The notes: generated from the letters alone by a model not told the origin. Positions 1-24,376 are shown, counted from the first letter of the stretch. The stretch: DNA of 37,470 nt from Gammaproteobacteria bacterium (GCA_029287435.1 JARFRD010000002.1:1-37470); one strand, 5' to 3'. Made by a program: numbers and translations.

Positions 1-1081
1 CATTCAATCTCTAGCCACAACTATATTTCTAGCTGCCATCTTTTTATTCGCTGCTGCAGTTCTGTGGTCACCTCGAGGTGGCTTCTCCGGTCTGGCTCAG
101 CTATGGGAAAGGTACCTGTTAAATATTGGTGGGCCATTTGAGCAGTGGATTTCCCAGTTATCTTCTCTAGAAGCCAACTCATCGCTGGAACCAGATTATT
201 TCCTTGAAACCAGCATTCGTTATTTACAGGAAAGGCACTGGATCAGCGGGATACACTGGAAGACCCAGTATGCCGATAAGACATCCGGTGATGTAACAAA
301 AAATGGCGTATCAGTCTCTGACGACAAGATCGAGCTTACGTTATATACACACAGCCCGGTTGGCCCGGCCTTGTTATTACATACAAAGCTGCTGCTAAGC
401 GTACTTACTTTTTACTACAAGGCGAAACTGCAGGAGCGTATGCTCACCAAGCAGGCACATCTGCGTGCAATATACGAAACCGGCTCAAAATTGACTCATG
501 ATGTAAAAAACATCCTGCAGTCAACCCAGGTACTTGCTCAGGCCGTGTCCAGCGATGACGCCAGAATCGAAGAAACTTATGAAATGCTTAGACGTCAGCT
601 ACCATTGCTGACAGACAGGTTACAGACCACACTCGATAAACTCAGCACACCCGGTCGACAACCGACTGAAACAATCCTGATAAAAACCTGGTGGCGGGAA
701 CTGATGTCGAAATACACCGGGCGTGATATTGAATTCAGTGAATCACTGCATGCGAATCCTGAAATACCCGCTGACGTATTTAACACGGTCACCGAGAATC
801 TGTTAGAAAACGCACGTTCAAAACGCATTATGGAGCCCGGTTTGAACATCAGTCTGACTATCCAGGCCGATAATCATTCAATTAATCTTCGTGTGATTGA
901 TAATGGCTCACCGATTCCTGAAGACACCTCTTCTCGCCTGTTCAACGAAGTACTGTTCTCTGAAAACGGCTTTGGTATTGGCCTGTATCAGTCAAGTCAA
1001 CTGGCAATGAAAGCGGGTTATAAGCTTAGCCTCGAAAGTAATAATCAGGGTAATGTTTGTTTCTGCCTGTCAAAACAGTAG
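1..1081 (+). CDS. Sensor histidine kinase (5' truncated by window edge)
   Basis: The listed ORF begins at a TTG (371), but the same frame is open back to base 2, so the gene enters from outside and about 359 residues are visible. The first visible residues form a membrane segment (TTIFLAAIFLFAAAVLW). A GAF-like stretch follows, then the dimerisation/phosphoacceptor helix with the H-box LTHDVKNILQS (His codon near 497). The ATPase domain shows an N-box (NLLENA), a G1 box (DNGSPIP) and a G2 box (GFGIGLYQ). It would autophosphorylate on His and pass the phosphate to a response regulator. It converges on the pilus-like operon with only nine bases between stop codons. The HDxKN H-box also occurs in PrsK-type kinases, and the operon's first gene is a PrsR-like regulator, so the pair may be partners; that is inference. 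The input domain is outside the window. Confidence 0.85.
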   Translation, partial: IQSLATTIFLAAIFLFAAAVLWSPRGGFSGLAQLWERYLLNIGGPFEQWISQLSSLEANSSLEPDYFLETSIRYLQERHWISGIHWKTQYADKTSGDVTKNGVSVSDDKIELTLYTHSPVGPALLLHTKLLLSVLTFYYKAKLQERMLTKQAHLRAIYETGSKLTHDVKNILQSTQVLAQAVSSDDARIEETYEMLRRQLPLLTDRLQTTLDKLSTPGRQPTETILIKTWWRELMSKYTGRDIEFSESLHANPEIPADVFNTVTENLLENARSKRIMEPGLNISLTIQADNHSINLRVIDNGSPIPEDTSSRLFNEVLFSENGFGIGLYQSSQLAMKAGYKLSLESNNQGNVCFCLSKQ

Positions 1082-1090
1082 TAATCACTA

Positions 1091-1876
1091 TTACGGCAGC
1101 ATTCCGGCATTCAGCATTTCAGCTTTGAGTTCATAGTCGGTCAGCCATATTATCAGATCATCGAATGGGCCCCCAGCCGTTGTAGTACCCTCCAGTGATG
1201 AGGTCCTGCTGATGAACTCGCTGTCATTCGAATTTGTATTATTGGTTTCATCAACATGGCTATCACCTACACTGGCTTCGTGTGCGGCGATGGTTTCATT
1301 CAAGCTGCTATCTGTGCTGATTCCGCCCAGCCTGTTTTTGCCGTGTGATACAACCACTGCAGTTATATTTGTTGCAAGTGACACCTCGTTATCTGCTGCA
1401 TCACGCGTCATTACTGTCATGGCTGTAACCGGTGACGCAAAGACAAATGGATTAGCATGGTCTGCGTATGCCGGGTCCACCCAGTATGTATAGCGCGTAT
1501 TCCATGCATCACCCCTGCCCAGCCCCAGCGTTACCCATGGCAGGTTACCCACACCACCGACGCCAACGCTACAGGTAGTTCCGTTAATATCCTCAATACC
1601 ATCGTTTGCCGTACCCACACAGCCAAAGGGGTTCCTGCAATCCGGGCATGGTAAGTAGGGGCCAACACCTCCCCGAATCGGGTCCGGATTCAACGCGTAG
1701 CCGACTAGCGCTTTTTTGATGTCTTCAAGTTCTTCTCGAGTCTCGGCAATTCGAGTACTGTCAATTCTTGCACCAAATGTGCCTATAAAACCGCCGATCA
1801 GTACACCGACGATAACCAGGACAATAGCCAGTTCAATCAGTGTAAAACCTTGTTGATGAGACTGCTGATTAATCAT
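1091..1876 (-). CDS. Prepilin-like protein, single-domain paralogue
   Basis: A class III-type prepilin signal is clear: a short polar leader, then G|FTLIELAIVLVIVGVLIGG with Glu at +5. Cleavage would be by a prepilin peptidase and the hydrophobic helix would pack in a filament core. The globular part has a YLPCPD motif, a PWVTLGLGRGDAW segment and several cysteines. I chose the ATG at 1876 because it overlaps the upstream stop as ATGA; the track start at 1891 adds five residues. At about 261 residues it is much longer than a typical major pilin (roughly 150-180). It is the last gene of the minus-strand operon and is homologous to the first half of its neighbour. Its role as main subunit, minor pilin or tip protein cannot be decided from sequence. 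Confidence 0.8.
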   Translation of the reverse strand: MINQQSHQQGFTLIELAIVLVIVGVLIGGFIGTFGARIDSTRIAETREELEDIKKALVGYALNPDPIRGGVGPYLPCPDCRNPFGCVGTANDGIEDINGTTCSVGVGGVGNLPWVTLGLGRGDAWNTRYTYWVDPAYADHANPFVFASPVTAMTVMTRDAADNEVSLATNITAVVVSHGKNRLGGISTDSSLNETIAAHEASVGDSHVDETNNTNSNDSEFISRTSSLEGTTTAGGPFDDLIIWLTDYELKAEMLNAGMLP

Positions 1877-3111
1877 GGGATCAGGGGCCATACACTGTCA
1901 TTGGACTCTGCTGCATCATAAACAAGATCCAGGTCAGCATTTTCGTTTTCATAGTATTCATTAATATTATTTATATGCCTGACACCGTTTAAATCTCTTC
2001 CCGCAAAAGTAACGACAAGGTCAGCATCGGTTATCGGCGGATTCACGTTATTTACCGTCAGGCAGTCAACACCAATGGTACAGGGAACGCTGGCTGCAAC
2101 GTGATAATACGTCACCTTGTGCCAGTCTTCCGCCTCCAGCCATACTGGCAATAAACCGTCCGCACAATTGCCTGGATTCCACTCGGTCGAATCTACCGGC
2201 ACATGACCCTGACGCACACCTGCATCGCTGGTATACAGACCAACTGCTTTTGTCGGGTCAAATGCAGACGCTTCTGGTAAATTGCCACAATTTGCAATAT
2301 CAGCATATGCAATCAATGCATTAGCCAGTTCTCCAGCTACACGTTGATGGATCACTTCCATGATTTCGTCATAAGTAATCACTTCGACGATATCATTTAC
2401 CTGCACCTGCGCTCCGGGGCGAACAACACCACTGATAAAGCCATCGAGTGTGCCATGCTGAAAACTCGCGTTATCCTCACCAAAGGCAATATCCAGGTAA
2501 TTCAGTGGATCATTCGGGTCCCCTGTAGCCGGCGAACGATCCTGCACATACGCATCTGACCGAACCAGCGCTTCACCCGGAGCCAGAATAACCGCAACTA
2601 TTCCATTACCGGTTGTACCATCGAAACGAATATTATTGTTGTTATCACGCACAGTGATGTTACCCGTTGTCGCTGAATTCACTTTGTTAACTGCCGGGCT
2701 GTTTGTATAGTCAAACGTATCTGCAACTGCGTACCAGAGTCCTTCATTGGCGCCATCACGAAGATCGCCGGCACCAACTGTGACCCAGGGAAAACGTCCC
2801 ACATTAACGACACCCGCGGGATTACAGCCAATGACTACCGATACACCATCGTTATCCAGATCCGGGCATGGTAAATAACCCGGCCCTCTGTTTGCCCCGG
2901 TTATTTCAGGGTAGTTAGCCGCATAGGCCAGCAGCGCTTTTTTTGCCTTTTTTAGCGCATCATTTGTTCGCGCATTGTTTTCAAACTCGAGGTCTCGTGC
3001 CGACATGTTCGAGATAAAAAAGGTGATAGCAGTTAATGCGATCACGATGATAATAAGCAGTAATGCTATTCCCTGCTGCCTGTTCCTACCAGCTACATAA
3101 AGCGATCGCAT
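1873..3111 (-). CDS. Large prepilin-like protein with duplicated globular domain
   Basis: The N-terminus is RQQG|IALLLIIIVIALTAITFF, a type IV pilin-like hydrophobic helix after a Gly, but without the Glu at +5, as is seen in PilX/GspK-type minor pilins. At 412 residues it is very large for a pilin. Residues from about 40 carry KKALLAYA, GYLPCPD and PWVTVGAG motifs shared with the next gene. A second, more divergent copy appears later (ELANALIAYA, LLPVWLEAEDWHKVTYYH, DADLVVTFAGRDL). Several cysteines could form disulfides. It is translationally coupled to the downstream prepilin gene (ATGA). The likely place is the filament tip or a minor subunit, by analogy with GspK; this is inference. Confidence 0.75.
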   Translation of the reverse strand: MRSLYVAGRNRQQGIALLLIIIVIALTAITFFISNMSARDLEFENNARTNDALKKAKKALLAYAANYPEITGANRGPGYLPCPDLDNDGVSVVIGCNPAGVVNVGRFPWVTVGAGDLRDGANEGLWYAVADTFDYTNSPAVNKVNSATTGNITVRDNNNNIRFDGTTGNGIVAVILAPGEALVRSDAYVQDRSPATGDPNDPLNYLDIAFGEDNASFQHGTLDGFISGVVRPGAQVQVNDIVEVITYDEIMEVIHQRVAGELANALIAYADIANCGNLPEASAFDPTKAVGLYTSDAGVRQGHVPVDSTEWNPGNCADGLLPVWLEAEDWHKVTYYHVAASVPCTIGVDCLTVNNVNPPITDADLVVTFAGRDLNGVRHINNINEYYENENADLDLVYDAAESNDSVWPLIP

Positions 3112-3122
3112 AATTTGTGCGG

Positions 3123-3542
3123 TTAATAATTATCTTTAACCGTACCTGTTGTCTCAGACCAGCTCTGGCCAGGCTGCATCATGATCTGGTGTTCATCCGT
3201 TTTTACCGGAACCTTGTATGATTCCTTGTTTACTTCTTTTGGATTTACTCTTACGCCATCTACTTTATTACTTTTTAAGGAGCTTTTATCATTGACCCAT
3301 ATAACATTGTTACCAGCTTCACGTATCATTACGCCATTTAACTCAACATCAGTTACAGCAGGCCTGTCTTCGATATTATTTGATGTCGCTGATCGCATGG
3401 CGTCTAGTTGTTGTCTTTCCTGTGGACTGGTGAAAAGACGATCAATGTTATCTGCTCCATATTTCTCGCTTGCTGACAACACCAGCGGCAGAACCATGCA
3501 ACACGCTAGCGATCCCAGGACCAGTTTGTTTACTTTACGCAT
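3123..3542 (-). CDS. MshK-like periplasmic pilus assembly protein
   Basis: I moved the start to the ATG at 3542, which has AAGGTG just upstream and lies two bases after the preceding stop. The track's longer version (3590) would run into the upstream gene. The protein is then 139 residues with a signal peptide (MRKVNKLVLGSLACCMVLPLVLSA). The mature part has RLFTSPQERQQLDAMR, followed by short beta-rich segments (VELNGVMIREAGNNVIWVND). That layout, and the position after the PilO-like gene, resemble MshK/PilP-type proteins that link inner-membrane components to the secretin. Similarity is weak, so the name is by position and architecture rather than strong family motifs. Confidence 0.6.
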   Translation of the reverse strand: MRKVNKLVLGSLACCMVLPLVLSASEKYGADNIDRLFTSPQERQQLDAMRSATSNNIEDRPAVTDVELNGVMIREAGNNVIWVNDKSSLKSNKVDGVRVNPKEVNKESYKVPVKTDEHQIMMQPGQSWSETTGTVKDNY

Positions 3543-3544
3543 AC

Positions 3545-4162
3545 TTACACCTTGCTCGCTTTCTTCAGCGTATACCAGCTTAATTCGCAATAAGCCCTCA
3601 TGTTCTCCCTGGCCATTTCAGCGCTCAACTGTTCAAGCCCTGATTTATTGATTAACTCCACATCACATTTATCAACTACACTGAGCCCGCGCGCATGACT
3701 GCGTAATGCATTTAACATCGCGAACAGATCCCCCTCATGCATAAACTTCATGTCAAGCGACATCGTGCTCTTAAAAACATCTATACCCTTATAGCGCTTA
3801 TCCAGTGATTTTTTTTCCTGCAGCACCTGGTTTGAAATACTGTATTTAACAGTTGCCATTCCTCTGGATTGAGCTGTTTTCTGTACGACCTCTACCCAGC
3901 TCAAACGATTTTCATCCCCTATGACCGAATTATCTTTTAGCTGTTTAAAGGTATTTTCATGCTTAACCAGGATCTGGTTATTTTTGTTCGCTTCCTCTAT
4001 CTTGTTTCGCCATTTACGCATTTCACGCTTGGCCTTTATTTCCTCCTCGTCTGCTTTCACTTTATACATATCAGACAGAGTAACAACCGTTGCCATCGAC
4101 AGCGCAATAACAATGAATACGGCCAGAGCCTTTTTGGTTGTTGAGTGCAGATTTTTATGCAT
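3545..4162 (-). CDS. PilO/MshJ-like inner-membrane pilus assembly protein
   Basis: A 205-residue bitopic protein: a short cytoplasmic tail, one membrane helix (about residues 11-32, ALAVFIVIALSMATVVTL), a charged coiled-coil segment (KADEEEIKAKREMRKWRNKI) and a periplasmic alpha/beta domain. This is the PilO/GspM/MshJ plan. Such proteins pair with PilN-like partners to connect the cytoplasmic PilM ring and platform to the secretin. It overlaps the preceding PilM/PilN-like gene by eight bases, implying coupled translation, and is followed two bases later by the MshK-like gene. Confidence 0.7.
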   Translation of the reverse strand: MHKNLHSTTKKALAVFIVIALSMATVVTLSDMYKVKADEEEIKAKREMRKWRNKIEEANKNNQILVKHENTFKQLKDNSVIGDENRLSWVEVVQKTAQSRGMATVKYSISNQVLQEKKSLDKRYKGIDVFKSTMSLDMKFMHEGDLFAMLNALRSHARGLSVVDKCDVELINKSGLEQLSAEMARENMRAYCELSWYTLKKASKV

Positions 4163-5765
4163 TTTCTGGCGCCTTCATAATTACCCGAAGAGAAAAAGCC
4201 CCTGTATTTCCTTTTGATACTGCCGCTTCTCCTGAAAGTGAAGTTTTGCTTTCAGAGGCAAACTTCTTGCTTGATCTGACTTCTACCGGCAGACTGATTG
4301 CACTTACATCTTCCACACGCTCATTTTCACTAATAACCGAAATAATATTATTAATATGATTGACTGATTCTCTGTAATTATCTGAAGCTACGGGGATTCT
4401 TCCGGAAACAACAGCCACATGCTGAATACTGTCACTCGATGCTGGATTGGTTTCTTTATACGCTATAGCAACAGGTTTGTTTCTGGATTTCTTTTTGGAC
4501 TTTGCCAAATCGAGCTGGCGGGTAGACCATTCAATCTTGTCGATATAAACCGTGCCAAGATGGGCTTGACTGATGATCTTGCTCAGCTCAACCATAAAAT
4601 CCATAGGCGTATTTTCACTACTGGCTTCAATCTGTCTGACCAGCGTTACAGCCGTGTCCATTAATCCCGCATTAGAAAACAGCTCCTCGTAGGCCTCATA
4701 TTTTTCCTTATAAACACGTTTAAATTCTGTTGACTCCTGCTTCAGCAGGTCTGTTGAACTTTTCAATGACATACCTTCAGATATATTCGATTCGATCATC
4801 AATAAAGCAGCAAGCACTACAACCACAGATGTTGCATATAACGCAGAAGATAAAACAGAATGATAAAAGCGATTAAATTCCTTACTTTCACCATAGTGTG
4901 ACTTTGCGCTGAATTTATTGACTGCTAACCAGGAAAAAATACCATCTGAAAATTTATCCGGCAGCCCTTTAATGCCCAGCTTGTCCTGCACATCTTTAAT
5001 ACGATGAATTTGATAGTCATGTGTGGGATCAGGTTCAAATGATTCAGTCAGAGAATCCAGCTGGCTATCTGATCCAATTACGTGAACATGAATAACCTCA
5101 TCATCTTCAACCTGGTGCTGGTTGCGCATGAAAGTCAGAGTACGATCAACTTCTGGCTTTGCCAGACGACCTATATTCGTAATGTTTGCAGCATCCTGAT
5201 TGATTACCGACTGTCTGCTGGAAATCATTTTTCCATCGATAAAGAATGTCTGCCGCAGATTACTGTTGACCTGTTGACTAACCAGAAGAACCGGTCCTTT
5301 TTTAGCACCTATAGTTGGTAACAAATCTTTGCTGACCAGCGGCAAACTCCAGATGCCTGATAACGGCACATCACTTTCTTCAATAATATCCAGCCATGGC
5401 TTGATTAGTGCCGGATTGGTAATGGCACCAATAAGCACCTCATCGTCTTTTCGTCCTGTCTTCAACCTACCCTGTACTTCAGCATAGGTATATTGCCTGC
5501 TCGCCCGATAATAACGGTCAATCAACCTCGATATTACTGCTTTCCTGTCCTTACCAAATACATGCGGAATAACCTCTTTTCGGAAATCTTCCTCTATAAC
5601 ATCCAGCAGCATCGCTGTAGAACTCTTGGCAGAAGATAACAGGTATTGTCTGAATTTTTCATAGCCGCCACTGTTTGGCTCGAACGAACATGCGCCGGAC
5701 AGCGACTTTACGCTCCAGTGGAAGACTGTTAGCCTGTGGCCTGAAAAATAGAAAACTCTTTTCAC
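4155..5765 (-). CDS. MshI/GspL-like protein (PilM-type ATPase fold plus PilN-type segment)
   Basis: 536 residues starting at GTG (5765) with GGATAGGA upstream. The N-terminal ~290 residues look like a divergent actin-like PilM/GspL/MshI cytoplasmic domain (VLIGAITNPALIKPWLDIIE; GPVLLVSQQVNSNLRQTFF). One membrane helix follows near residues 300-325 (SALYATSVVVVLAALLMI), then a periplasmic coiled coil and a PilN-like domain (MDFMVELSKIISQAHLGTVY). Fusion of the PilM and PilN roles in one chain is the GspL arrangement. It would dock the assembly ATPase to the platform and pair with the PilO-like protein encoded next. Codon use here looks more AT-rich than in mshE and mshL upstream. Confidence 0.7.
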   Translation of the reverse strand: MKRVFYFSGHRLTVFHWSVKSLSGACSFEPNSGGYEKFRQYLLSSAKSSTAMLLDVIEEDFRKEVIPHVFGKDRKAVISRLIDRYYRASRQYTYAEVQGRLKTGRKDDEVLIGAITNPALIKPWLDIIEESDVPLSGIWSLPLVSKDLLPTIGAKKGPVLLVSQQVNSNLRQTFFIDGKMISSRQSVINQDAANITNIGRLAKPEVDRTLTFMRNQHQVEDDEVIHVHVIGSDSQLDSLTESFEPDPTHDYQIHRIKDVQDKLGIKGLPDKFSDGIFSWLAVNKFSAKSHYGESKEFNRFYHSVLSSALYATSVVVVLAALLMIESNISEGMSLKSSTDLLKQESTEFKRVYKEKYEAYEELFSNAGLMDTAVTLVRQIEASSENTPMDFMVELSKIISQAHLGTVYIDKIEWSTRQLDLAKSKKKSRNKPVAIAYKETNPASSDSIQHVAVVSGRIPVASDNYRESVNHINNIISVISENERVEDVSAISLPVEVRSSKKFASESKTSLSGEAAVSKGNTGAFSLRVIMKAPENA

Positions 5766-5776
5766 AATCCTATCCG

Positions 5777-6982
5777 TTAAACCTTAACATTTGACACTGC
5801 ATCGTAAACCGGCCCTAGTACGGCAAGCATAATCCATAGCATGATGCCGCCAAGTAACACTGTCAGGATCGGCATCATCGCCGGCTCCAGTTTCTCAATC
5901 GATTCTTTAACTTCGCGATTATAAAAGTAACTGACATTTAACAAGGCCTCATCCATTGCGCCTGTATCCTCTCCCACCCGTATCATTCTCACGATTAATG
6001 AAGGAAAAACACCGATACTCTCGAAACTTTCGCTTATCTGCGAGCCTTCCGCGATACTTGCTCTCGCTTTATTTATGGAATCCTCGAGTACCAGGTTATC
6101 TACCATGTCCTCAGAAATTGTTAATGCATCAAGCACTGTAATACCCGAGCTATACATCATTGCAAAATAGTTTGCGAATCGAGCCAGTTTTATCTTTGAA
6201 GCAAGCGGCCCAATCAGCCAGATTTTCAGCTTCAGACCATCCAGCAGGTAGCGTAACCCCACATTACGTTTTGCCATGAAGGTGACACCAGCAATTACAA
6301 CTACCGGTACTGTAAAAATCAGATACCAGTATTCGACGAATGCACTGGATACAGCCATTAATACCTTGGTATGTGTTGGAATTTCACTACCAATGTTTTT
6401 TATAAATGGCAGCAACTGCGGCATCAGGTAAATCATCAAAAAACTGACCACGGCCAAAACAACAATCGATACAATCGCCGGGTAAATCATTATTTTTTTC
6501 GTATGGGAAGCCAGCTCATCCTGCCACATAATTGTTTCTGCAAGATCTCTAAGCACTTCTGCAAGATTACCGGTCTCTTCACCCACTCTGACCAGGGTCA
6601 CATAGACCTTGTCAAAAATCAGCGGGTGCTCAGATAGCGCAAGTGAAAACGTTTTACCACCTTCAATGTCGTCAATTACTGTTTGCAGTACGTCTGTAAA
6701 GTGGCCATATTCAATGCTATCCCTGATATCTTTCAGGCTATCAAGTAAAGGTACTCCTGATTTAGTAAGCTGCTCTACGTGAAAGGTGAAATTTATAAGT
6801 TCACGTCGGGTAATTGATTTTTTTTGCAGGAATGACTGCGATAATTTACTTTCCTTGTAACTGAGAAGGTCAAATCCCATGCTACCGAGGCGTTTTTCAA
6901 GCTCCATGGGATTACTCGCAACCATGGTGTCTGATCGCACCTTGCCGTTAGCATCAATGGTCTTGAACTTGTAATCCGGCAT
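5777..6982 (-). CDS. mshG: MshG/GspF/PilC-family platform protein
   Basis: 401 residues, the usual length for the GspF family. It opens with PDYKFKTIDANGKVRSDTM and has two homologous cytoplasmic T2SSF domains, each with the family's G-V-L and GE-TG motifs (TKSGVPLLDSLKDI and VGEETGNLAEVL; SSGITVLDAL and VGEDTGAMDEAL). Membrane helices are evident near residues 165-190, 218-236 and 368-392. It forms the inner-membrane platform that the ATPase rotates or pushes to add or remove pilin subunits. It starts two bases after the ATPase gene's stop. Confidence 0.93.
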   Translation of the reverse strand: MPDYKFKTIDANGKVRSDTMVASNPMELEKRLGSMGFDLLSYKESKLSQSFLQKKSITRRELINFTFHVEQLTKSGVPLLDSLKDIRDSIEYGHFTDVLQTVIDDIEGGKTFSLALSEHPLIFDKVYVTLVRVGEETGNLAEVLRDLAETIMWQDELASHTKKIMIYPAIVSIVVLAVVSFLMIYLMPQLLPFIKNIGSEIPTHTKVLMAVSSAFVEYWYLIFTVPVVVIAGVTFMAKRNVGLRYLLDGLKLKIWLIGPLASKIKLARFANYFAMMYSSGITVLDALTISEDMVDNLVLEDSINKARASIAEGSQISESFESIGVFPSLIVRMIRVGEDTGAMDEALLNVSYFYNREVKESIEKLEPAMMPILTVLLGGIMLWIMLAVLGPVYDAVSNVKV

Positions 6983-6984
6983 GC

Positions 6985-8700
6985 TTACATCAACCTCTGA
7001 GTCAGGTCGATCACACGTGAAACCTCCTGCAAGGTCGTTTCACCATCCAGTACTCGCCTGATGGCATCATCTGCCAACGATTTATAGCCCGTCGATTTTG
7101 CGCAGGCTCTTAACTCACCCAGAGTTGCACGTTTCGCAATCAATTCATCGAGCTCATTATCAATTCTCAGCGCCTCGATAATAGCGACACGACCTTTATA
7201 TCCCGTGTTATCACAATGTGGACAACCGGCAGCATCATATATCGTCAGTGCTTCGCTGACATATTCAACACCAAGCAACTTGCTGTCGGTCTCGTCAGCT
7301 TCGCGTGGTTTTTTACATTCCGGGCACAACAGGCGCACCAGGCGCTGACTGATAATGCCAATAATGTTGCCCGTCATAATGTCCGGCAACACGCCAATAT
7401 CGAGCAGGCGTGGGATCGCACCAATCGCAGAGTTGGTATGTAGTGTCGAAAGCACCTGGTGACCCGTCATCGCTGCCCTGAATGCCATGTCGGCCGTATC
7501 TTCATCACGAATCTCACCAACGAGGATAATGTCGGGGTCCTGACGCATCATCGATCGAATACCATTTGCGAAATCCATGCGTGCGACTTCGTTGACCGAT
7601 GTCTGCCGAATCATATCCACCGGATATTCGACAGGATCTTCCAGCGTCATGATGTTGACCTGTTCCGACTTGACGTAATTCAGCAGTGAATACAGGGTTG
7701 TGGTCTTACCGCTACCCGTGGGGCCTGTGACCAGGATGATGCCTTCAGGACGTGCCATCATCAGGCGTAATGCATTTAAAGTGCCTTCATTTAGGCCAAG
7801 CTGTTCCAGTGGCACGATACCTTTTGCACGATCCAGTACACGCAGTACAATATTCTCACCATGCGTTGTGGGCTGTGCCGACACACGAAAATCTACACGA
7901 TGCCCCTGCACCTGCAGGCTCAGACGCCCATCCTGAGGAATACGTGTTTCAGCGATATTCATGTTTGACATGACTTTCAGGCGCACAACGATGGCAGACC
8001 AGTAATCCTTATGCAGACTGCGAATCTGTCGCATCACGCCATCAATGCGATAGCGTAAACGCAGAAAGCCGTCTTCGGGCTCAAAGTGAATATCGGATGC
8101 CTCACGCTTCACCGCGTCAGCCAGTATTGCATCCACCAGTCTTACCAATGGCTGACTGTATTCATCATCGATGGTATCCAGACTCTGATAATCGATTTCA
8201 CCGGTCTCGATCTCGTTAAGAATGCCATCGACTGATAACTCATAGCCGTAGAACTGGTCGATTGCTTTCTTGATTTCGCCTTCGCCGGCGACCATCGGTA
8301 CAATTTCAATCTTGCGACCAACCAGTGCATGGATGCGGTCAAGCACCAGCAGGTCAGACGCATTTTTCATTGCGATTTTCAGCTGCTGATCATCATCGTC
8401 ATAGCTGACCGGTATAATGGTATGACGATCGGCGACTTCCTTGGGAACCAGTGTCAGCGCTTCCTGGTCAGGAATAACACTGGCAAGATCCACACTGTCG
8501 ACACCCAGTACCTTGCCGAGCACATCGCGCATCACGGATTCAGAAACGAACCCGAGACTGACGAGTATTTCGCCGATCAGTCGCCCTGTTTTCTTCTGCT
8601 CGGTGAGCGCAATATCGACCTGGTCAACTGACACCAGGCCTTTCTCGACGAGCTCTTCACCAAGCCGCTTTTTTTTCTTTGTCATTGCTGGTGCGTTCAT
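6985..8700 (-). CDS. mshE: MshE/GspE-family assembly ATPase with MshEN-like N-terminus
   Basis: 571 residues. The C-terminal motor has Walker A (GPTGSGKTTTLYS), the Asp box and Walker B (DPDIILVGEIRDEDTADMAF), the His box (TGHQVLSTLHTN) and a CxxC...CxxC zinc motif (CPECKKPR, CPHCDNTGYKGR) typical of extension ATPases. The N-terminus carries two LG-x-x-L repeats separated by five residues (RLGEELVEKGLVS, then LIGEILVSLGFVS), the pattern of the c-di-GMP-binding MshEN domain. The second copy has Leu for the usual Lys/Arg and Val for the final Gln. It powers filament or pseudopilus assembly, docked on the MshI-like and MshG proteins. Confidence 0.95.
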   Translation of the reverse strand: MNAPAMTKKKKRLGEELVEKGLVSVDQVDIALTEQKKTGRLIGEILVSLGFVSESVMRDVLGKVLGVDSVDLASVIPDQEALTLVPKEVADRHTIIPVSYDDDDQQLKIAMKNASDLLVLDRIHALVGRKIEIVPMVAGEGEIKKAIDQFYGYELSVDGILNEIETGEIDYQSLDTIDDEYSQPLVRLVDAILADAVKREASDIHFEPEDGFLRLRYRIDGVMRQIRSLHKDYWSAIVVRLKVMSNMNIAETRIPQDGRLSLQVQGHRVDFRVSAQPTTHGENIVLRVLDRAKGIVPLEQLGLNEGTLNALRLMMARPEGIILVTGPTGSGKTTTLYSLLNYVKSEQVNIMTLEDPVEYPVDMIRQTSVNEVARMDFANGIRSMMRQDPDIILVGEIRDEDTADMAFRAAMTGHQVLSTLHTNSAIGAIPRLLDIGVLPDIMTGNIIGIISQRLVRLLCPECKKPREADETDSKLLGVEYVSEALTIYDAAGCPHCDNTGYKGRVAIIEALRIDNELDELIAKRATLGELRACAKSTGYKSLADDAIRRVLDGETTLQEVSRVIDLTQRLM

Positions 8701-8702
8701 GG

Positions 8703-10013
8703 CTATTCGCGTGCTCCCAGCAATGCTATTCGTTTCTGGACCGAGTCGACTGAGAAGTTGATGTTCTTACCAGCCGCCAGCCGCAAGCTATCCTGGTAAT
8801 AACCACGGGCCTCGCGGTATTTACCCAGATGGTCGAGACTCACAGCCAGGTTGTAGGCATAGTCCGGATTTTGACTGTCATTCTGTAAGGCATTAAAGAA
8901 GGCCTGTTGTGCTTCCGGCCAGCTCTGTTTCTGTACATACAGATTCCCCAGCGCAAACTGCAGATGTGAATCATCAGGACGATGCTCGATCAGTTGTTTG
9001 AGTTTACTTTCACTCAAATTTGCACCATACATCTGCGCAATATTGGCGAGACCGGCATGTGCATGCGGGTCTTTTGGGTCACGCTGAAGCAGACGGATAT
9101 AAGTATCACGCGCGGTCTCGATGTCCTGTTGCTGTAACGCAACAGCAGCTACACCGAGCATGGCATCATGATTATTCGGCTCCTGCTCGAGTGCGGCGCG
9201 ATATGTTTTAGCGGCCAGTTCATAATCCTGCTGCTGATATGCCATCCATGCCTGGTTTAGCTTGACGCTGATCGGGTCGCGCTTCTCCTGTCTGGTTACG
9301 GTGAACGTTTCAGGTTTGTTCGTAACAACACCCGATGCCGCCTGACTTTTGGGTGCCTTAACCTGTGCAGGTTTTGTCGTATTAGTGCCTGCGCTGTCCT
9401 GCTGCTCGCTTTTTGAAGTGCTGGCCGGCACAGCGGCAAGTGATGTCAGGTTCTCTTCAATCTTTGTTTTAGCCTGCAGTGAGGCAAGCGCAATCTGGTG
9501 CTTGCGCTGCATCATTTCTATTTCATTATTCATCTCTGTATAAAAATACAGTCCACCCAGCGCGAGGAGCACAAGCGCCACCGTGGCAACGCCGCCCCAC
9601 AGAACGAAACGTGATTTTTTATATTCACTATTGGTTTTTCGTATCAGCAGTTGTAAGGCTTCATCGGTAACCGTGGACGGTGTAGCGGTTACCTGGGTTG
9701 TATCCTGGCGTTGTGCAACCGGTGCTGGCTCAATTTTTTCCGCACCAGTATCTGGAACGTCCTGTATCGGCGATTCACTTTCTAGCTCCAGAACATCATC
9801 GTCAAGCTCTAACTCTGGCGGCTCTGAGCTATCATCAATATCAAGATCGACGGACGTTATCTGTGATTGTGTTGCATCGACTGGTTGTTCAGCCTGTAAG
9901 ACCGCCTCATCTACGTCAGATAAAGCCTGATCTTCTGTTTCGGACACACCTGAAGCATCAGCTTTCTGCTTGTCTTCTGCAGCTTTTTTCAGGGCATCCA
10001 GTAACAGACTCAT
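8703..10013 (-). CDS. MshN-like TPR protein, inner membrane
   Basis: 436 residues beginning MSLLLDALKKAAEDK, a start shared by GspB/MshN-type proteins. The cytoplasmic N-terminal part (1-135) is rich in Glu/Asp (PPELELDDDVLELESES). A membrane helix lies at about 136-158, then a coiled-coil segment (NNEIEMMQRKHQIALASLQ), a low-complexity linker and about five tetratricopeptide repeats from residue ~250 (AWMAYQQQDYELAAKTYRAA onward). TPRs in MshN/PilF-like proteins assist secretin assembly or bridge to the envelope. The gene lies between the secretin and the ATPase genes, as in MSHA loci. Confidence 0.8.
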   Translation of the reverse strand: MSLLLDALKKAAEDKQKADASGVSETEDQALSDVDEAVLQAEQPVDATQSQITSVDLDIDDSSEPPELELDDDVLELESESPIQDVPDTGAEKIEPAPVAQRQDTTQVTATPSTVTDEALQLLIRKTNSEYKKSRFVLWGGVATVALVLLALGGLYFYTEMNNEIEMMQRKHQIALASLQAKTKIEENLTSLAAVPASTSKSEQQDSAGTNTTKPAQVKAPKSQAASGVVTNKPETFTVTRQEKRDPISVKLNQAWMAYQQQDYELAAKTYRAALEQEPNNHDAMLGVAAVALQQQDIETARDTYIRLLQRDPKDPHAHAGLANIAQMYGANLSESKLKQLIEHRPDDSHLQFALGNLYVQKQSWPEAQQAFFNALQNDSQNPDYAYNLAVSLDHLGKYREARGYYQDSLRLAAGKNINFSVDSVQKRIALLGARE

Positions 10014-10049
10014 CTTTGTACTCTATGTCAATCTTGATCAAAACAACAT

Positions 10050-11720
10050 TTACTGAGTGCTTTGTTCTGACTGGTCATCACCAGCTTCGGCTGTGGTTAA
10101 CTTCTTATCGTTTTTAGTATGCAGTTCTTCGAGCAGATACTTGCGGTACTCCTTGAAATCACCCGTCAAAGAGGCATCTTTCGTGACCACGGGACGGATG
10201 AAAATAACCAGCTCTGATTTTGCATACTTATCATCCTGGTAACGGAACAATGCACCTAACCATGGGATGCTGGATAATATCGGCACGCCTGATGTTGTTT
10301 TATCGATCTGGTCCTGCATCAAACCACCGATCACAGCGGTATCACCGTTTTCAATCTTGAGCACTGATTCTATTTCACGAACCTGGATCACGGGAATCTC
10401 GCTCGTCACTCCCGCATCAGCGAGCTGTGGGTTGGGGTCAGCAACAAAACCTATGATGCGTGAAATTGTTGGGCGCACATTCAGTGTCACCGTTTCATGC
10501 TGATCAATGAATGGCGTTACTGACATCACAAAACCTACGGGCACTGTGTTCACATCGGTATCAACCGTTACCAGAGAATTCTGGTTTACAGATCCGGGCA
10601 CTGCCTCAACATCCGTGGTGAAATACACCTCGTTATCAACAACCTTGAGAATAGCGCTCTGGTTGTTGATGGCCATTACCTTCGGGCTGGACAACACCTT
10701 GACATCACCAAACGTTTCCAACGCTTTAAGCGTGACATTCAATGGATTACCACTGATGGTCTCTGCGACGTTAAACGAGAAAAATGGCGTTTGTCCCAGA
10801 TTACCACCGAGCAGATCCTGGGTGGCCGTGGTGTTGGGGTCGCTGGTTACCAGGGTCCAGTCGATACCTGCCTGGTAACGGTCACTTAACTGAACTTCGG
10901 CAATGGTGGCTTCGATCAACACCTGTCGCTGTACGCTATCGAGCACCTTGTCAATAAAGTCTCCAATCTCTACGTGCTGTTTTGCGGTCGCCTTGACCGC
11001 TAACATGCCACTCTCGCGGTTAACGATAATCCGATCGCTGGTAAGGACATCATCACCTTTACTGGCTTTAACTTGTTCGCCGATAATGCTGGCAATATTG
11101 ATCGTCAGTGTTTTCCAGAACTGGTTAGTCGAGCTGTTTTGCACAAGTGAGTTTGAGTCATTACCGCCGCCGCTACCGCCGCCACTGGCACCACTCGCGC
11201 CGCTTTCAACATTACCCGTGCCTGTAGATTGAATTTCTGATGAAACCTCAACAGTACCCGTGCTGGTACGAGATACATTCAGGTAACTGATATTGTAGGT
11301 CTTGAGGTGCGGCGTATCTGATTTAACAACCAGTGTATCGTCGACCAGGCTGTAGCGGATGTCAGTCTGTTGCGAAATCCTGTCCAGAATTCTCGGCAAG
11401 GTTTGATCAATGGCATTCATTGTTACCTTGCCCGAGATTGTATTATCGATATCCAGGTTCAAATCCGCATCGCGCGCCATTGAAAACAGCAGTTCACGAA
11501 CTGGCACATCATGCACAACAACCGTATAGGTTTCGAGTTCGGGTCTTTCCTGTGGCTTTGGCAATACAGGCACCTGTGCAACGGGCGCAGGTATGCTCTC
11601 GACCGCAGGTTCATCAAAGATCAGGTGACCGTCTGAAACCTCAGGCGGGTTTGAAGCCCCACATCCACTCAGAATGGTTAGCCCAAAGATAATACCGGTT
11701 TTTATAGTATACATGTTCAT
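10050..11720 (-). CDS. mshL: MshL-family outer-membrane secretin
   Basis: 556 residues. The N-terminus is a lipoprotein signal (GLTILSGC, lipobox Cys near 20), so it may be a lipidated secretin needing no pilotin. An STN domain follows (YTVVVHDVPVRELLFSMA), then a Gly/Ser-rich loop (SGASGASGGGSGGG) within the N1-like region, and the secretin beta-barrel with ALETFGDVKVLSSPKVMAIN and the closing VPILSSIPWLGALFRY...SELVIFIRPVV. The start is the ATG at 11720, with GGAAATC upstream. It forms the outer-membrane channel through which the filament or cargo passes. Confidence 0.93.
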   Translation of the reverse strand: MNMYTIKTGIIFGLTILSGCGASNPPEVSDGHLIFDEPAVESIPAPVAQVPVLPKPQERPELETYTVVVHDVPVRELLFSMARDADLNLDIDNTISGKVTMNAIDQTLPRILDRISQQTDIRYSLVDDTLVVKSDTPHLKTYNISYLNVSRTSTGTVEVSSEIQSTGTGNVESGASGASGGGSGGGNDSNSLVQNSSTNQFWKTLTINIASIIGEQVKASKGDDVLTSDRIIVNRESGMLAVKATAKQHVEIGDFIDKVLDSVQRQVLIEATIAEVQLSDRYQAGIDWTLVTSDPNTTATQDLLGGNLGQTPFFSFNVAETISGNPLNVTLKALETFGDVKVLSSPKVMAINNQSAILKVVDNEVYFTTDVEAVPGSVNQNSLVTVDTDVNTVPVGFVMSVTPFIDQHETVTLNVRPTISRIIGFVADPNPQLADAGVTSEIPVIQVREIESVLKIENGDTAVIGGLMQDQIDKTTSGVPILSSIPWLGALFRYQDDKYAKSELVIFIRPVVTKDASLTGDFKEYRKYLLEELHTKNDKKLTTAEAGDDQSEQSTQ

Positions 11721-11768
11721 CTGATTTCCAATGACTCGATCCCCTGTCGATTCGAAGCTGCTTCTTGC

Positions 11769-12314
11769 TTATCCTGCCGCTATAAGATCTTTCTTCAACG
11801 CACTAACACGCCGCAAGTATGGCTTGCTGGCTTTTAATGAATCAGGCAGGTTTTGAAGCGTCGTGCGGGCCGTGGTTAGCGATTCAAAATCGTTATAAAG
11901 TACGCTATACATACGACTACCGCCGATCTTAGTTTCATAGACGTAAATCTTTTCAAATTCAAGAACACCGGACCTGTTTTTAAGGAACGATTCGACAGCT
12001 TTGGCATCAGCAATACGTGTCATAAACAGTTGAATACTGTAATTTCCGCTATCTGCCTGGCGTAACCATTTTTCAGTTTCGCTAAGGCGCTGATCGAGCC
12101 TGGTTGGTGAGATGCGTGGCTCAGCACTGGCATCTGTCGTCGTCGCATCTGCAGCTTGCGCTGTGTTAGCCGTTACGCCTTTAGGTACTTCCATATGTGA
12201 AGCTGTATCGACCAACACAGGTGACTTGTTATCCTTAAGCGGTAACAAGGTTCCAAGCCATACTGCTAACACGAGTAAATTGACAGCACCCGCCCCGTTA
12301 ATCCATGGGCGCAT
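11769..12314 (-). CDS. SPOR-like single-pass membrane protein of the pilus locus
   Basis: 181 residues: one N-terminal membrane helix (GAVNLLVLAVWLGTLLPL), a Ala/Thr-rich linker, and a C-terminal domain that reads like SPOR: YSIQLFMTRIADAKAVESFL, then IYVYETKIGGSRMYSVLYND and ESLTTARTTLQNLP. SPOR domains bind denuded peptidoglycan glycans. It follows the ExeA/MshM-like ATPase by 15 bases and precedes the secretin, so it may serve as the wall-binding partner in secretin placement, a role a fused peptidoglycan-binding domain plays in ExeA. That role is inferred; the domain call is by pattern only. Confidence 0.65.
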   Translation of the reverse strand: MRPWINGAGAVNLLVLAVWLGTLLPLKDNKSPVLVDTASHMEVPKGVTANTAQAADATTTDASAEPRISPTRLDQRLSETEKWLRQADSGNYSIQLFMTRIADAKAVESFLKNRSGVLEFEKIYVYETKIGGSRMYSVLYNDFESLTTARTTLQNLPDSLKASKPYLRRVSALKKDLIAAG

Positions 12315-12329
12315 GTTTTTCGCCGTGCG

Positions 12330-13133
12330 TTAATCACTGTCTTTTGCTGCAGTTGCTACATGTTTTGAACTGACCTCGTGTCCACCTTCTGAAAAAGAGG
12401 CCATCAATGCCTTGTCAGCAATGATGTTGATCCTTCTTGACAGGCCACCAGAGTATTTTTCGACCGCATTTGCGGTACGCTGACTGAACAGACTTGGGCC
12501 TTTATAACCAACCGCGCGCAAACGGAAGTTCAGATAATCGAGCGTGTCTTTTGGCGGGAATGGATCGAGATAAAAGCCGTGAGTAATACGTTCTTTCAAT
12601 TGACGTATCTGCGGCTGTGAAAGTTTCTCGTCGAGTTCGGGTTGTCCGAACAAAACCATTTGAAGCAGCTTGTGCTGGTCAGTTTCGAGGTTACTCAGCA
12701 GGCGGATCTCTTCCAGCGTTTCCACCGGCATGCTTTGCGCTTCTTCGACAAAGAGTACGACCTGTCGGTTATCGGCGTGCTTCTTTAACAGGTAATCCTG
12801 CAGTTTTTGCATCACGCTGAGCTTGCTTTCATCGCTGCTGACATCCAGGTGTAATTCATGAGCAATCACGTGCAGGATGTTGTCTGGTGACAGGCTTGGG
12901 TTTGCGATATAGACAACATCAATACTGTCGGCCAGTCGAACCTCGAGCATACGACACAACATGGTTTTGCCGCTGCCGACTTCTCCTACAACCTTGATGA
13001 TGCCTTCACCTGATCTGATTGCATACATTAATGCTTCCAGGGCGGCGCCGCGCTTACTGCCTTCATAAAACAGGCTGGTATCCGGCGTGATTTTGAACGG
13101 CTGTCTTTCAAGGCCAAAATGTTCAAGATACAT
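12330..13133 (-). CDS. mshM: MshM/ExeA(GspA)-family AAA ATPase
   Basis: 267 residues with the characteristic start [18 protein letters not shown]. Walker A is GEVGSGKT (about residues 50-57), Walker B is VVLFVEEAQ, and a sensor region follows (LRAVGYKGPSLFS, GGLSRRINIIADKAL). Aeromonas ExeA is about twice this length because of C-terminal periplasmic parts including a peptidoglycan-binding domain; these are absent here, so this is the short MshM form. It probably helps place the secretin or its wall-associated partner. Its start overlaps the end of the response-regulator gene by 11 bases. Confidence 0.85.
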   Translation of the reverse strand: MYLEHFGLERQPFKITPDTSLFYEGSKRGAALEALMYAIRSGEGIIKVVGEVGSGKTMLCRMLEVRLADSIDVVYIANPSLSPDNILHVIAHELHLDVSSDESKLSVMQKLQDYLLKKHADNRQVVLFVEEAQSMPVETLEEIRLLSNLETDQHKLLQMVLFGQPELDEKLSQPQIRQLKERITHGFYLDPFPPKDTLDYLNFRLRAVGYKGPSLFSQRTANAVEKYSGGLSRRINIIADKALMASFSEGGHEVSSKHVATAAKDSD

Positions 13134-14556
13134 TTTTGTTATCCCCCAGTTTTTGCACCCTGCTGTATAGAGTTGTTCGATTAATATGCAGGGCCTCTGC
13201 CGCTTTGCTTACGTTGTTATTATTTTTTTCCAGCGCAATCCGAATACAGCGACTTTCGATATCACCGAGCAATTCATCGAGCCTGAGCTCGCCCGCCTCA
13301 ATCATGCTTACAATATAGCTATCATTGATTGTTGTGCTTTGGTCGTTTAACGCCTCGGCAGACAATTGCGTTTCAAGCTCATTGTTCAATTGTGATCGTG
13401 TTACTGTTGCGCCCGGGTACTTCGTGCCCAGCCTGATAACGATGTTTCTGAGTTCCCGCACGTTTCCGGGGAAACTGTAACTACGCCATAGTTCAGACGC
13501 ATCTTGATCAAGCGTGATCGGCTTGACCGTGTCTGCATAAACCTGTTGAAAGTGGTCGAGTAACAGCATCTTGTCATCATTACGCTCACGCAACGACGGC
13601 ACACTGATGTGCAGGATACTTAATCGATGGTAAAGGTCGGCACGAAAGCGACCTTCCACCACTTCTTCACTTAATACCTTGTTGGTTGCAGTGACGATGC
13701 GGGCACGGGATTTGTGCATCTGCGTTTCACCTACCCGGTAAAACTCACCGGTTTCCAGCACGCGCAGCAGTTTGCTTTGTAATTCAAGTGGAAGCTCACC
13801 AATCTCATCCAGAAACAGTGTACCCTCGCCCACTTCCACGAAGAACCCCTTGTGCTCCCGGTCAGCACCGGTAAATGCTCCCTTACGATGTCCGAATAGC
13901 TGGGCTTCCAGCAGTTCAGGTGCGATAGACGCGCAATTAATCACCATGTAGGGATAATTGCTGCGCACGCTTTTGTCATGCAAGGCACGGGCTATCATTT
14001 CCTTACCCGTACCCGACTCACCTTCGATTAACACCGGAAACGGTGAGCCCGCAAACTGCTGGATCTGGTTTTTCACTGCCTGTATCGGTAGGCTGTCGCC
14101 GATAATACCGGCATCCGTCTGAACATCACGCTGGATCTCGATATCCAGTAACCGCTGGTGGTGCTGTAACCGGGATAACAATAAATCGGGGTCAGCTGGC
14201 TTGGCGATAAAATCAACCGCACCGAGCGTCAGTGCATGCTGGATATTCACATCTTCATCCTGCCCCGATAACACCAGAATTTTCATGTGTGGATTTCTGC
14301 TGATCAATTCCCTGATCAGCTCAAACCCCTCATCCGGCTTGTGTGGATACGGCGGCAGACCCAGGTCGACCAGTGCTATACCCGTCGATTCTGACTGCGT
14401 CATGAGCGCACTCGCCGCTGCCCTGCTATCCGCCGTGAGCACGTGAAAATGTTGCGACAGAATAAACTCGAGGCTCTCTGCAATCAGTGGATCATCATCC
14501 ACGAGCAGCAGAGTCTCAAGCTGTTCAGCATTAGCCTTCATTGCATGTTCAGGCAT
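13123..14556 (-). CDS. Sigma-54-dependent response regulator, PrsR-like
   Basis: 477 residues in three domains. The receiver domain has the acidic pocket (LLVDDDP, residues 17-23), probable phospho-acceptor Asp64 ([10 protein letters not shown]) and a Lys in IAKPAD. The AAA domain has Walker A ([14 protein letters not shown]), the sigma-54 contact loop GAFTGAD and Walker B (GTLFLDEIG). The C-terminal Fis-type helix-turn-helix is [20 protein letters not shown]. It should activate sigma-54 promoters when phosphorylated. The extended [13 protein letters not shown] loop resembles PrsR regulators of PEP-CTERM systems, though no exosortase or PEP-CTERM protein is present here. It heads the pilus-like operon and may autoregulate it. 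The cognate kinase is possibly the one at 1-1081. The start is the ATG at 14556; a second ATG at 14541 is possible. Confidence 0.9.
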
Positions 14557-22301: not shown

Positions 22302-23009
22302 CTAGGTATTATCTGTATTCTGGTAGCGTACGGCTTCTACGTGCATACACAGGCTCAGATCATCACTGACCATCGGTGCCATGCTGATAATGCCGAATTC
22401 AGAACGACGAATCTTTGTTGAAGCCTTTACATATATACGCTGGCTAGATTCCCCTGGTTCCTCATCCAGCTCCTCCATGACGACATGGAAGCCAACCTGT
22501 TTAGTAACATCGCGAATGGTCAGATCGCCAACCAGTACCGCTTCCTTTTCATTCAACCAGTAAAAGCCACGACTCACAAACAACATCTCGGGATAATGTT
22601 CACTATCAAGAAACGACTCACTTTCCAGTAATGAGCGGATCAGCTGGCCCGGGACTTCCATGCTCTCGGTTTCGACGACCATCATTGCCTGTCCGGAAAC
22701 ACCTTTCTTGTTGGGCTCAATGGTAAAACCACCTTTAAATTCCTTGAAATTACCCTCTATCAACCCAAGCGGTGTATCAATACAAAAGCCCATACGTGAA
22801 GAGACTGCTTCTATCTGGTACAACTGTCCCTTACTGGCGGCATCAAGCATGTGCTGAAACATATCGGCATCGACTTTTCCATTCGCAAACGGTGCACATA
22901 CATCGGTGCTGCTGTCTTCTTGCATAACCACTTCTTCTGCAATCGACAACAGCGGACTGATTATCAGCGCGGATACCAATGCCCATAGAATTACGTTTTT
23001 ACTAAACAT
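22302..23009 (-). CDS. Secreted YceI-like protein (copy 1)
   Basis: 235 residues: a signal peptide (VILWALVSALIISPLLSIA), a conserved N-terminal module (DVCAPFANGKVDADMFQHML) and a YceI-like lipocalin-fold domain starting at LYQIEAVSSRMGFCIDTP. The domain includes the family's FLDSEHYPEMLFVS, VGDLTIRDVTKQVGFHV and IRRSEFGI. Cysteines 38, 76 and 221 are shared with the third copy. YceI proteins are periplasmic binders of isoprenoid-like lipids, but the ligand here is unknown. AGGGAAAC precedes the start, ten bases after the middle copy, so it is the last gene of a three-gene unit. Confidence 0.82.
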   Translation of the reverse strand: MFSKNVILWALVSALIISPLLSIAEEVVMQEDSSTDVCAPFANGKVDADMFQHMLDAASKGQLYQIEAVSSRMGFCIDTPLGLIEGNFKEFKGGFTIEPNKKGVSGQAMMVVETESMEVPGQLIRSLLESESFLDSEHYPEMLFVSRGFYWLNEKEAVLVGDLTIRDVTKQVGFHVVMEELDEEPGESSQRIYVKASTKIRRSEFGIISMAPMVSDDLSLCMHVEAVRYQNTDNT

Positions 23010-23019
23010 TGCTGTTTCC

Positions 23020-23613
23020 CTACCTGGTACTGAACATCATCTGTTCCATTGCATAAGCTTCAGAAGCTTTATCTGTTCTGGCCTGCATGGCTACACAAAA
23101 GTTCAAACCACCATCATGTTTTGATTCTGCTGAAGTATCGGAAGACGAAGCCGGTCTCAAGGACAGGGTACCAATCAGCTGGATCTCACCTTTTAGTCCT
23201 GTTGTGACAGTACTTTCAGACATATCTACATCAAGAATGACATCCTGACTCATGTCTTTGAACTTTAAAACGCCCGGTAACATACGGGTGTTACGATCAA
23301 GAGTGTTTTGCGTAAAGTTAAATGTTAACGATGACAGCTGCTCTGCATAGTGCTCATGCATTAATGGCGAGGCATTGCTGTTGGCATTATCCGGAGAGTA
23401 GTTTCTCCACAAAGTTATACCTTTCTCAGCATCAAGAAATACAGCGTCTGTATTACCCTCAGCATCTTGCTGGCAAAATCCCGTCATTACGGTCTCTGGA
23501 ACAATTTGATACTGATCGTTATCAGCATGCTTTTCCTGACCAGATACCACTGAAGCAGCCAGTAGCGCCAGTAAAGAAAAGCTGGCGGAAGTAATATTTA
23601 CAAATGTGCGCAT
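23020..23613 (-). CDS. Secreted YceI-like protein, strongly diverged (copy 2)
   Basis: 197 residues from the ATG at 23613, which has GAGG six bases upstream; the track's GTG start (23625) adds four residues. A signal peptide (ASFSLLALLAASVVSG) leads straight into YQIVPETVMTGFCQ, matching YQI...GFC of the flanking copies. It also keeps LKFKDMSQDVILDVDM (equivalent to LTIRDVTKQVGFHVVM) and LNFCVAMQA (equivalent to LSLCMHVEA). The N-terminal CxPF-GKVD module and the FLDSEHYPEMLFVS motif are lost. The tail is unrelated. Membership of the YceI family is inferred from these spaced matches and from position. Confidence 0.65.
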   Translation of the reverse strand: MRTFVNITSASFSLLALLAASVVSGQEKHADNDQYQIVPETVMTGFCQQDAEGNTDAVFLDAEKGITLWRNYSPDNANSNASPLMHEHYAEQLSSLTFNFTQNTLDRNTRMLPGVLKFKDMSQDVILDVDMSESTVTTGLKGEIQLIGTLSLRPASSSDTSAESKHDGGLNFCVAMQARTDKASEAYAMEQMMFSTR

Positions 23614-23692
23614 CCTGCACCTCACAAATTAGTTTCTACTAATATACTTATAGTATAAATTGCTTACTATTTTTTGAACATTTTGTGAATAT

Positions 23693-24376
23693 TTATGCGC
23701 TGTAACGGACAGCTTCAACTTGCATACACAAGCTGATATCGTCGCTAACCACACTCGACATACTGATGATGCCGAAAGCAGCACGACTGATACGGGTCGA
23801 TGCCTTTACCTGTACCAACTGCCCGTCCTGGCCAATCTCGCTTTCCTGTTCGATCATTTCGACATGGAAACCGACGGTTCGAGTGACATCGCGAATAGTC
23901 AGGTCTCCGACCAGAACGGCTTCGTTTTCATTAACCCAGTAAAAGCCTTTGCTGACAAACAGCATTTCCGGAAAATGCTCACTATCCAGGAAGGATTCAC
24001 CCTCAAGCATGTTGCGAACAAATGAATTTGAAACATCGACACTACCGGTTTCAACCCTGAATAAGGCCTTGCCCTGGTTATCACCGGCCTGCTGCTCCAT
24101 GGTAAAACCACCCTGGAACTGCTTGAAGTCACCTTCAATCAGGCCAATAGGGCTATCGATACAAAAACCAATACGGGATGTGTCAGACTGAATCTGGTAA
24201 AGCTGCCCCTTTGAAGCAGCATCCAGCATGTGTTGTACAACAGCAGAATCCACCTTGCCACCCTGAAAAGGTGAGCAAACATCTGCATTGCTAGAGGCAT
24301 TTGCAGGCACTACCATACCGACCAAAACGAGGCCGGCAAGTGTATGTCTGAATTTGTTGAGTATGCTTAAAATCAT
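23693..24376 (-). CDS. Secreted YceI-like protein (copy 3, promoter-proximal)
   Basis: 227 residues: a signal peptide ending near VPANA, the N-terminal module DVCSPFQGGKVDSAVVQHML, and a YceI-like domain with LYQIQSDTSRIGFCIDSP, FLDSEHFPEMLFVS, VGDLTIRDVTRTVGFHV and ISRAAFGI. It is clearly paralogous to copy 1, with long identical stretches such as HMLDAASKGQLYQI. Cysteines 34, 72 and 217 match copy 1. The ATG at 24376 has no good ribosome-binding site but follows the mapped promoter by about 23 bases. It probably heads the three-gene transcript. Confidence 0.82.
   Translation of the reverse strand: MILSILNKFRHTLAGLVLVGMVVPANASSNADVCSPFQGGKVDSAVVQHMLDAASKGQLYQIQSDTSRIGFCIDSPIGLIEGDFKQFQGGFTMEQQAGDNQGKALFRVETGSVDVSNSFVRNMLEGESFLDSEHFPEMLFVSKGFYWVNENEAVLVGDLTIRDVTRTVGFHVEMIEQESEIGQDGQLVQVKASTRISRAAFGIISMSSVVSDDISLCMQVEAVRYSA

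Follow-up and report, generated by a model that had tools for sequence, protein, structure and literature searches.

The window, that is, the whole stretch of 37,470 nucleotides that was analysed, corresponds to contig C170; the MAG to which it belongs measures 2.6 Mb, is 77% complete and contains a strain mixture. By an ORF check of the window, all 12 of the 12 co-directional ORFs proposed between positions 1091 and 14556 were verified on the minus strand, and a convergent gene cut by the window edge lies beside them, as listed below (coordinates, strand, identity and, in brackets, the supporting match or observation).

1..1081, plus strand: C-terminal part of a sensor histidine kinase (HATPase_c), truncated at the window edge, convergent (PF02518, 1.5e-9)
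1091..1891, minus strand: pilin266, a large prepilin with GFTLIE including Glu5 and a conserved PCP cysteine (N_methyl, 6e-8)
1873..3111, minus strand: pil412, a 412-aa pilin-like protein lacking Glu5, with a conserved LPCPD (homologues in the order)
3123..3590, minus strand: small protein resembling MshK/PilP, with weak conservation and an uncertain start codon (position and homology among relatives)
3545..4162, minus strand: MshJ/PilO-like protein (conserved position)
4155..5765, minus strand: I536, a presumed 536-aa PilM/PilN-like fusion, the marker gene of the system (alignment across relatives)
5777..6982, minus strand: platform protein of the MshG/PilC/GspF family (T2SSF, 5e-50; own clade, 100/100)
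6985..8700, minus strand: extension ATPase with an MshEN c-di-GMP module (T2SSE, 8e-129; MshEN, 5e-16)
8703..10013, minus strand: MshN-like TPR protein, start MSLLLDALKKA (TPR matches; conserved position ahead of E)
10050..11720, minus strand: secretin of the MshL family (Secretin, 2e-40; TIGR02519, 257 bits, cut-off 250)
11769..12314, minus strand: TM and SPOR-like domain protein (PF05036, E 0.0077, below the cut-off)
12330..13133, minus strand: MshM/ExeA-type AAA+ ATPase (AAA_22, 8e-29)
13123..14556, minus strand: NtrC-family (PrsR-like) response regulator with a sigma-54 interaction domain (Response_reg, 5e-18; Sigma54_activat, 3e-63; HTH_8, 1e-10)

The gene order given in the original prediction was correct, and chance can be excluded because the identical order was found again in at least two classes. 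Its reading as an MSHA-like operon with a regulator of its own was borne out by the twelve ORFs and their domain matches, including Sigma54_activat in the NtrC-type regulator; the latter also scored 337 bits against TIGR02915, short of the equivalog cut-off. No significant Pfam match was obtained for the products of pil412, I, J and K, and the positions of all four are conserved across relatives. The MshJ/PilO-like protein was 37–63% identical to most relatives within the order and 22–29% identical to the most distant ones, and I536 is taken by us to be a PilM/PilN-like fusion from its position and its length. The twelve parts had all been placed correctly, but two of them, MshM and the SPOR-like protein, are a single gene in relatives, where the TM-SPOR ORF forms the C-terminal half of one fused MshM protein; here an in-frame stop (GAT TAA, window 12315-12332) separates the two halves, which share the same frame. 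The histidine kinase fragment was 71% identical to residues 199–557 of the full-length kinase of a relative, and the system runs on beyond the left edge of the window with the kinase, an ABC-2 permease, a ~245-aa protein, a third pilin (pilin3) and an ABC ATPase. At 22302-24376 of the window, three related ORFs stand in a row, whose sequence was judged by eye to be YceI-like.

In loci of the window's order (L040–L055), the order RR-M(SPOR)-L-N-E-G-I-J-K-pil412-pilin266, followed by the convergent histidine kinase, is conserved, with trmL/gpsA/secB usually on one side and the ABC-2 permease, the ~245-aa protein (‘DRPV’), pilin3 and the ABC ATPase on the other. The I536 marker was found in 73 of the 369 sampled species of Gammaproteobacteria and in 80 named loci; those from MAGs of Arenicellales, Thiotrichaceae, Pseudomonadales, Chromatiaceae and Gallionellaceae (the last among L129–L155) share the identical order. 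A match to pil412 is encoded in 43 of the 54 genomes of the window's order. The system is also present in a second class of Pseudomonadota, where, at locus L251, genes for the ABC permease, DRPV, pilin3 and the ABC ATPase follow the pilins contiguously and in the same direction. A search of plasmids for the I536 marker gave no match. The system is widespread in environmental proteobacteria, at times beside a normal MSHA locus.

The extension ATPase carries R12 and Q35 at a spacing equal to that of R9 and Q32 of V. cholerae MshE, residues which participate in c-di-GMP binding there (PMC4624772). This pair, as R or K plus Q, is retained in 52 of the 53 parsable members of the clade (26 others were not parsable), and the ATPase scored 62 bits against the NCBIfam c-di-GMP motif NF053729 (cut-off 38).

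Phylogenies of mshE and mshL had been proposed along with the original prediction as a check. In the secretin tree, classical MshL and the secretins of this system unite at 100/96 and then part into two sister clades (100/99 each), and in the platform tree the system is sister to, and outside, the MshG clade (92/83; both clades 100/100); both trees set it apart from the GspD, GspF and type IVa pilus (PilC/PilQ) clades. The ATPase falls in a clade of its own (100/100), just as separate from MshE as from GspE and PilB and with no sister resolved, and AU tests rejected none of its unions (with MshE, GspE and PilB: p = 0.21, 0.10 and 0.16, respectively). In at least 38 of the 73 carriers, a second MshL match scoring above or close to the cut-off lies apart from I536; one further carrier (G133) has its second MshL just 7.9 kb from the I536 locus, and in G133, G411 and G207 both loci share a contig within about 30 kb. 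Because the trees separate and about half of the carriers hold a separate MshL locus, the locus coexists with MSHA as a distinct lineage, sister to it, and is not a shuffled MSHA. In two pairs of loci (L158/L159 and L160/L161), a classical MSHA locus and this system lie adjacent near trmL (near gpsA/secB too in L161), as if the trmL site were a landing spot for both.

With the MSHA systems of Vibrio, Shewanella and Aeromonas, the locus shares MshL-, M-, N-, E- and G-type parts, the MshEN module, the N-E-G core order and the absence of pilD from the locus, PilD and PilT being supplied in trans. It differs in its order (RR-M-L-N-E-G-I-J-K-pilins), the PilM/N-like fusion, the fusion of MshM to SPOR, its own two-component system and ABC module, the distinct ATPase clade and the lack of a short MshA-D/O-type pilin set. 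The claim that its gene order is unlike that of classical MSHA stands: the classical I-J-K-L-M-N-E-G-pilins is replaced by a different order that is conserved within its own clade and among relatives, whereas classical loci (Aeromonas caviae L206; L159, L161–L165) run L-M-N-E-G and then short pilins. Among the genes mandatory in the MSH model of Denise 2019 (mshA, mshE, mshG, mshL and mshM), the secretin is MshL-type and the AAA_22 protein belongs to the same protein family as M of classical loci, but a short MshA-type pilin is absent from the locus, and pilin3 shares with solved MshA the N-terminal helix region only. T2SS likewise has GspE/F/D-type parts, prepilins and a GspK-like subunit without Glu5; here, however, the secretin and platform protein are apart from GspD and GspF, the ATPase is in its own clade, and the GspC-N gene set with GspD/GspE/GspF-clade proteins is lacking. 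Nor do the proteins belong to the PilB/PilC/PilQ clades, and the T4aP genes of the genome lie elsewhere; the linkage of a pilin gene, an ABC transporter and a two-component NtrC-type regulator is shared with Myxococcus T4aP (PilGHI ABC transporter, PilR/S), although the machinery here is not T4aP. Membership in the type IV filament superfamily is evident from the pilins that are prepilin peptidase substrates, the extension ATPase and the platform protein.

In 15 orthologues of pilin266, G15, F16, E20 and L80-P83 are invariant, and G-1, F1, Glu5 and the PCP motif are retained. In the orthologue alignment of pil412, Q12, G14 and L17 are invariant, the processing region reads QQG|IALLL with a GspK/PilX-like start, and G-1 is retained while Glu5 is absent; the GspK pseudopilin likewise lacks Glu5. 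By profile comparison, pilin266 is homologous to the N-half of pil412 (99%, E 4e-18). The AF2 model of pil412 (pLDDT 68) combines an N-terminal helix of 61 residues with mixed head domains, and a fold search with it against the PDB gave no match. An internal duplication in pil412, hinted at by a second helix and an ‘LPxPA’ motif, was not significant. Pil412 and pilin266 would be minor, tip or priming subunits.

A normal major pilin had been reported as lacking, but the region just outside the window encodes a third pilin, which has a sigma-54 promoter. Pilin3 is ~230 aa long with an almost invariant start, GFTLIEIAIVLVIIGLLLGGVLKGQELIN, and lies just past the histidine kinase in relatives. In the genome under study it is found on contig C41, which is the left neighbour of the window in this population because it also encodes residues 1-265 of the kinase and overlaps window positions 1-235, though at only 91% identity and in a MAG of mixed strains. 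Two copies of pilin3 occur in the genome (L006:2541-3236 and L007:122-799), sharing 82% identity and matching fully at the 5' and 3' ends. The contigs carrying them are broken at this gene, and the two may be either tandem copies or strain variants. The beginning of contig C167 (L007:1-118), with poly-C and an Illumina/Nextera adapter, is an assembly artefact.

In order to score -24/-12 sites, a sigma-54 matrix was built by hand from the published consensus, with a threshold of ≥11.5 bits picked after inspection. Such a site was present upstream of 15 of 31 pilin3-type genes, corresponding to 15 of the 17 closest orthologues, including that of the own genome (TGGTACGGTAATTGCT at L006:2465), and was absent from the more distant homologues. 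In the controls, sites occurred upstream of 3 of 80 pilin266-type genes, two of the three being pilin genes beside PilB loci, and in 4 of the 555 remaining upstream regions; Fisher's test gave p = 1e-7 and 5e-18, respectively, for sequences that are related and hence not independent. When the operon itself and other genes were scanned with the same matrix, no sigma-54 promoter was found upstream of them. RpoN is encoded in the genome. The putative promoter of pilin3 fits the NtrC-type regulator of the operon and the convergent histidine kinase, and the regulator encoded at 13123-14556 would be its natural activator; relatives have another NtrC-type gene within a few genes' distance. Pilin3 is probably the major filament subunit; its AlphaFold model is poor (pLDDT 45).

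The genome was also searched family by family for trans-acting parts. A single prepilin peptidase, PilD, is encoded on contig C144, adjoining a PilC, and four PilT/PilU-family ATPases are encoded on C82 (three) and C92 (one), so that the statements that the locus lacks a prepilin peptidase and has no retraction ATPase do not extend to the genome. T4aP minor pilins are found on C55 and a T2SS pseudopilin cluster on C135. All MSH loci are without pilD (Denise et al., PMC6668835), and the MSHA pilus of V. cholerae is reported to be worked by PilT (PMC9815625); loci of this kind therefore as a rule lack pilD and pilT. That parts seemed to be missing is an artefact, produced by the edge of the window and by supply in trans, and ‘self-contained’ was not an apt description, since PilD and PilT/PilU-type ATPases are encoded elsewhere and the system continues beyond the left edge. 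Separately from the T4aP genes, contig C43 encodes a TfpB-family pilus ATPase (L001:4372-6153; NF053534, 922 bits, cut-off 850).

We read the locus as a c-di-GMP- and sigma-54-controlled type IV pilus that is sister to MSHA, in which pilin3 is the major subunit and the two large pilins take minor or tip positions, serving attachment and biofilm formation, and give this reading a probability of roughly 70%. The histidine kinase and the NtrC-type regulator would turn on pilin3 via its sigma-54 promoter, the prepilins would be cleaved by PilD, and pilin3 would be polymerised as the main subunit by the c-di-GMP-gated MshE-like ATPase and the platform protein. The PilM/N-like fusion together with J and K may form the inner-membrane alignment complex, and the filament would exit via the MshL-type secretin, whose assembly may be aided by the peptidoglycan-binding MshM-SPOR protein. 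The tip could be primed or capped by pil412, which lacks Glu5, and pilin266, and retraction would depend on PilT in trans. The linked ABC transporter may be needed for pilin handling or may export a partner; pilin translocation in Myxococcus is described as requiring the PilG/H/I ABC transporter (PMC3724824). The most likely role would be surface attachment and biofilm formation.

Three other readings were weighed against this one. An ordinary MSHA pilus locus with genes merely rearranged in this lineage would account for the MshL equivalog match above the cut-off, the MshEN domain, the N-E-G order as in MSHA-like operons and the rearranged MSH cluster of Sideroxydans and Gallionella (Emerson et al., PMC3770913); it is very unlikely, given that secretin, platform protein and ATPase form clades outside the classical MSHA proteins, that both loci occur together in many genomes, that I is a PilM/PilN-like fusion and that no short MshA/B/C/D/O-type pilins follow MshG. 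We hold it quite unlikely that the locus is a T2SS-like short-pseudopilus system exporting specific proteins through the MshL-type secretin. The GspK-like lack of Glu5 in pil412, the large Cys-containing pilins, the SPOR/ExeA-like protein and the linked ABC transporter agree with such a role, but the machine proteins group with MSHA and not with T2SS, the genome already has a separate T2SS, and pilin3 has its own sigma-54 promoter, as is the case for pilA genes. Of the two options originally put forward, a short pseudopilus for secretion or a new type IV filament, the former has thus become less likely, and the latter holds as a sister lineage because the system is phylogenetically distinct from MSHA.

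The remaining reading, in which an unrelated adjacent module comprises pilin3 and the ABC transporter and pilin266 is the main filament subunit, draws on the operon members L108, L109 and L117, which are without ABC genes, and on members without a sigma-54 site. These three loci nevertheless keep pilin3 adjoining the operon, and the contiguous, same-direction arrangement at L251 also speaks against an unrelated module, which we consider unlikely. Going beyond a pilus that is sister to MSHA, the system might represent a type IV filament class in its own right, ranking equally with MSHA and T2SS and found widely in Pseudomonadota, in which a Cys-stabilised filament is built, a dedicated ABC transporter exports a pilin or a partner, and a job is done that MSHA does not do; this is possible but doubtful.

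Emerson et al. 2013 (PMC3770913) mentioned ‘a significant gene rearrangement’ in the MSH cluster of Sideroxydans ES-1 and Gallionella ES-2, with data not shown and the function stated as unknown; their few sentences treat the cluster as homologous to MSH genes and not as a separate family. That cluster is likely the same system as the one described here. The locus of Gallionellaceae, whose MAGs carry this operon and order, was called MSHA in a 2023 study (PMC10734482), and our literature search found no paper treating or naming the system as its own family. As such loci tend to carry the label ‘MSHA’, for example in studies of Gallionellaceae, attachment phenotypes predicted from it may be founded on the wrong system, in iron oxidisers as in other uncultured proteobacteria. 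With its own regulator, promoter and ABC module, and coexisting with MSHA as its monophyletic sister, the system provides a testable example of type IV filaments splitting into new machines.

Two variations of the operon were also observed. In the other class of Pseudomonadota, a PilM-like domain, equivalent to roughly the first 300 residues of I536, and an MshEN-T2SSE ATPase are joined in single ORFs of ~930 aa (927 aa in L248, 956 aa in L250 and 923 aa in L257), often as an extra copy beside a normal operon. In a single-contig genome of the same genus as the window (G020; L044, L233), the operon is split, with I-J-K-pilins at 1.73 Mb, the secretin at 0.48 Mb and a further T2SSE ATPase at 1.33 Mb.
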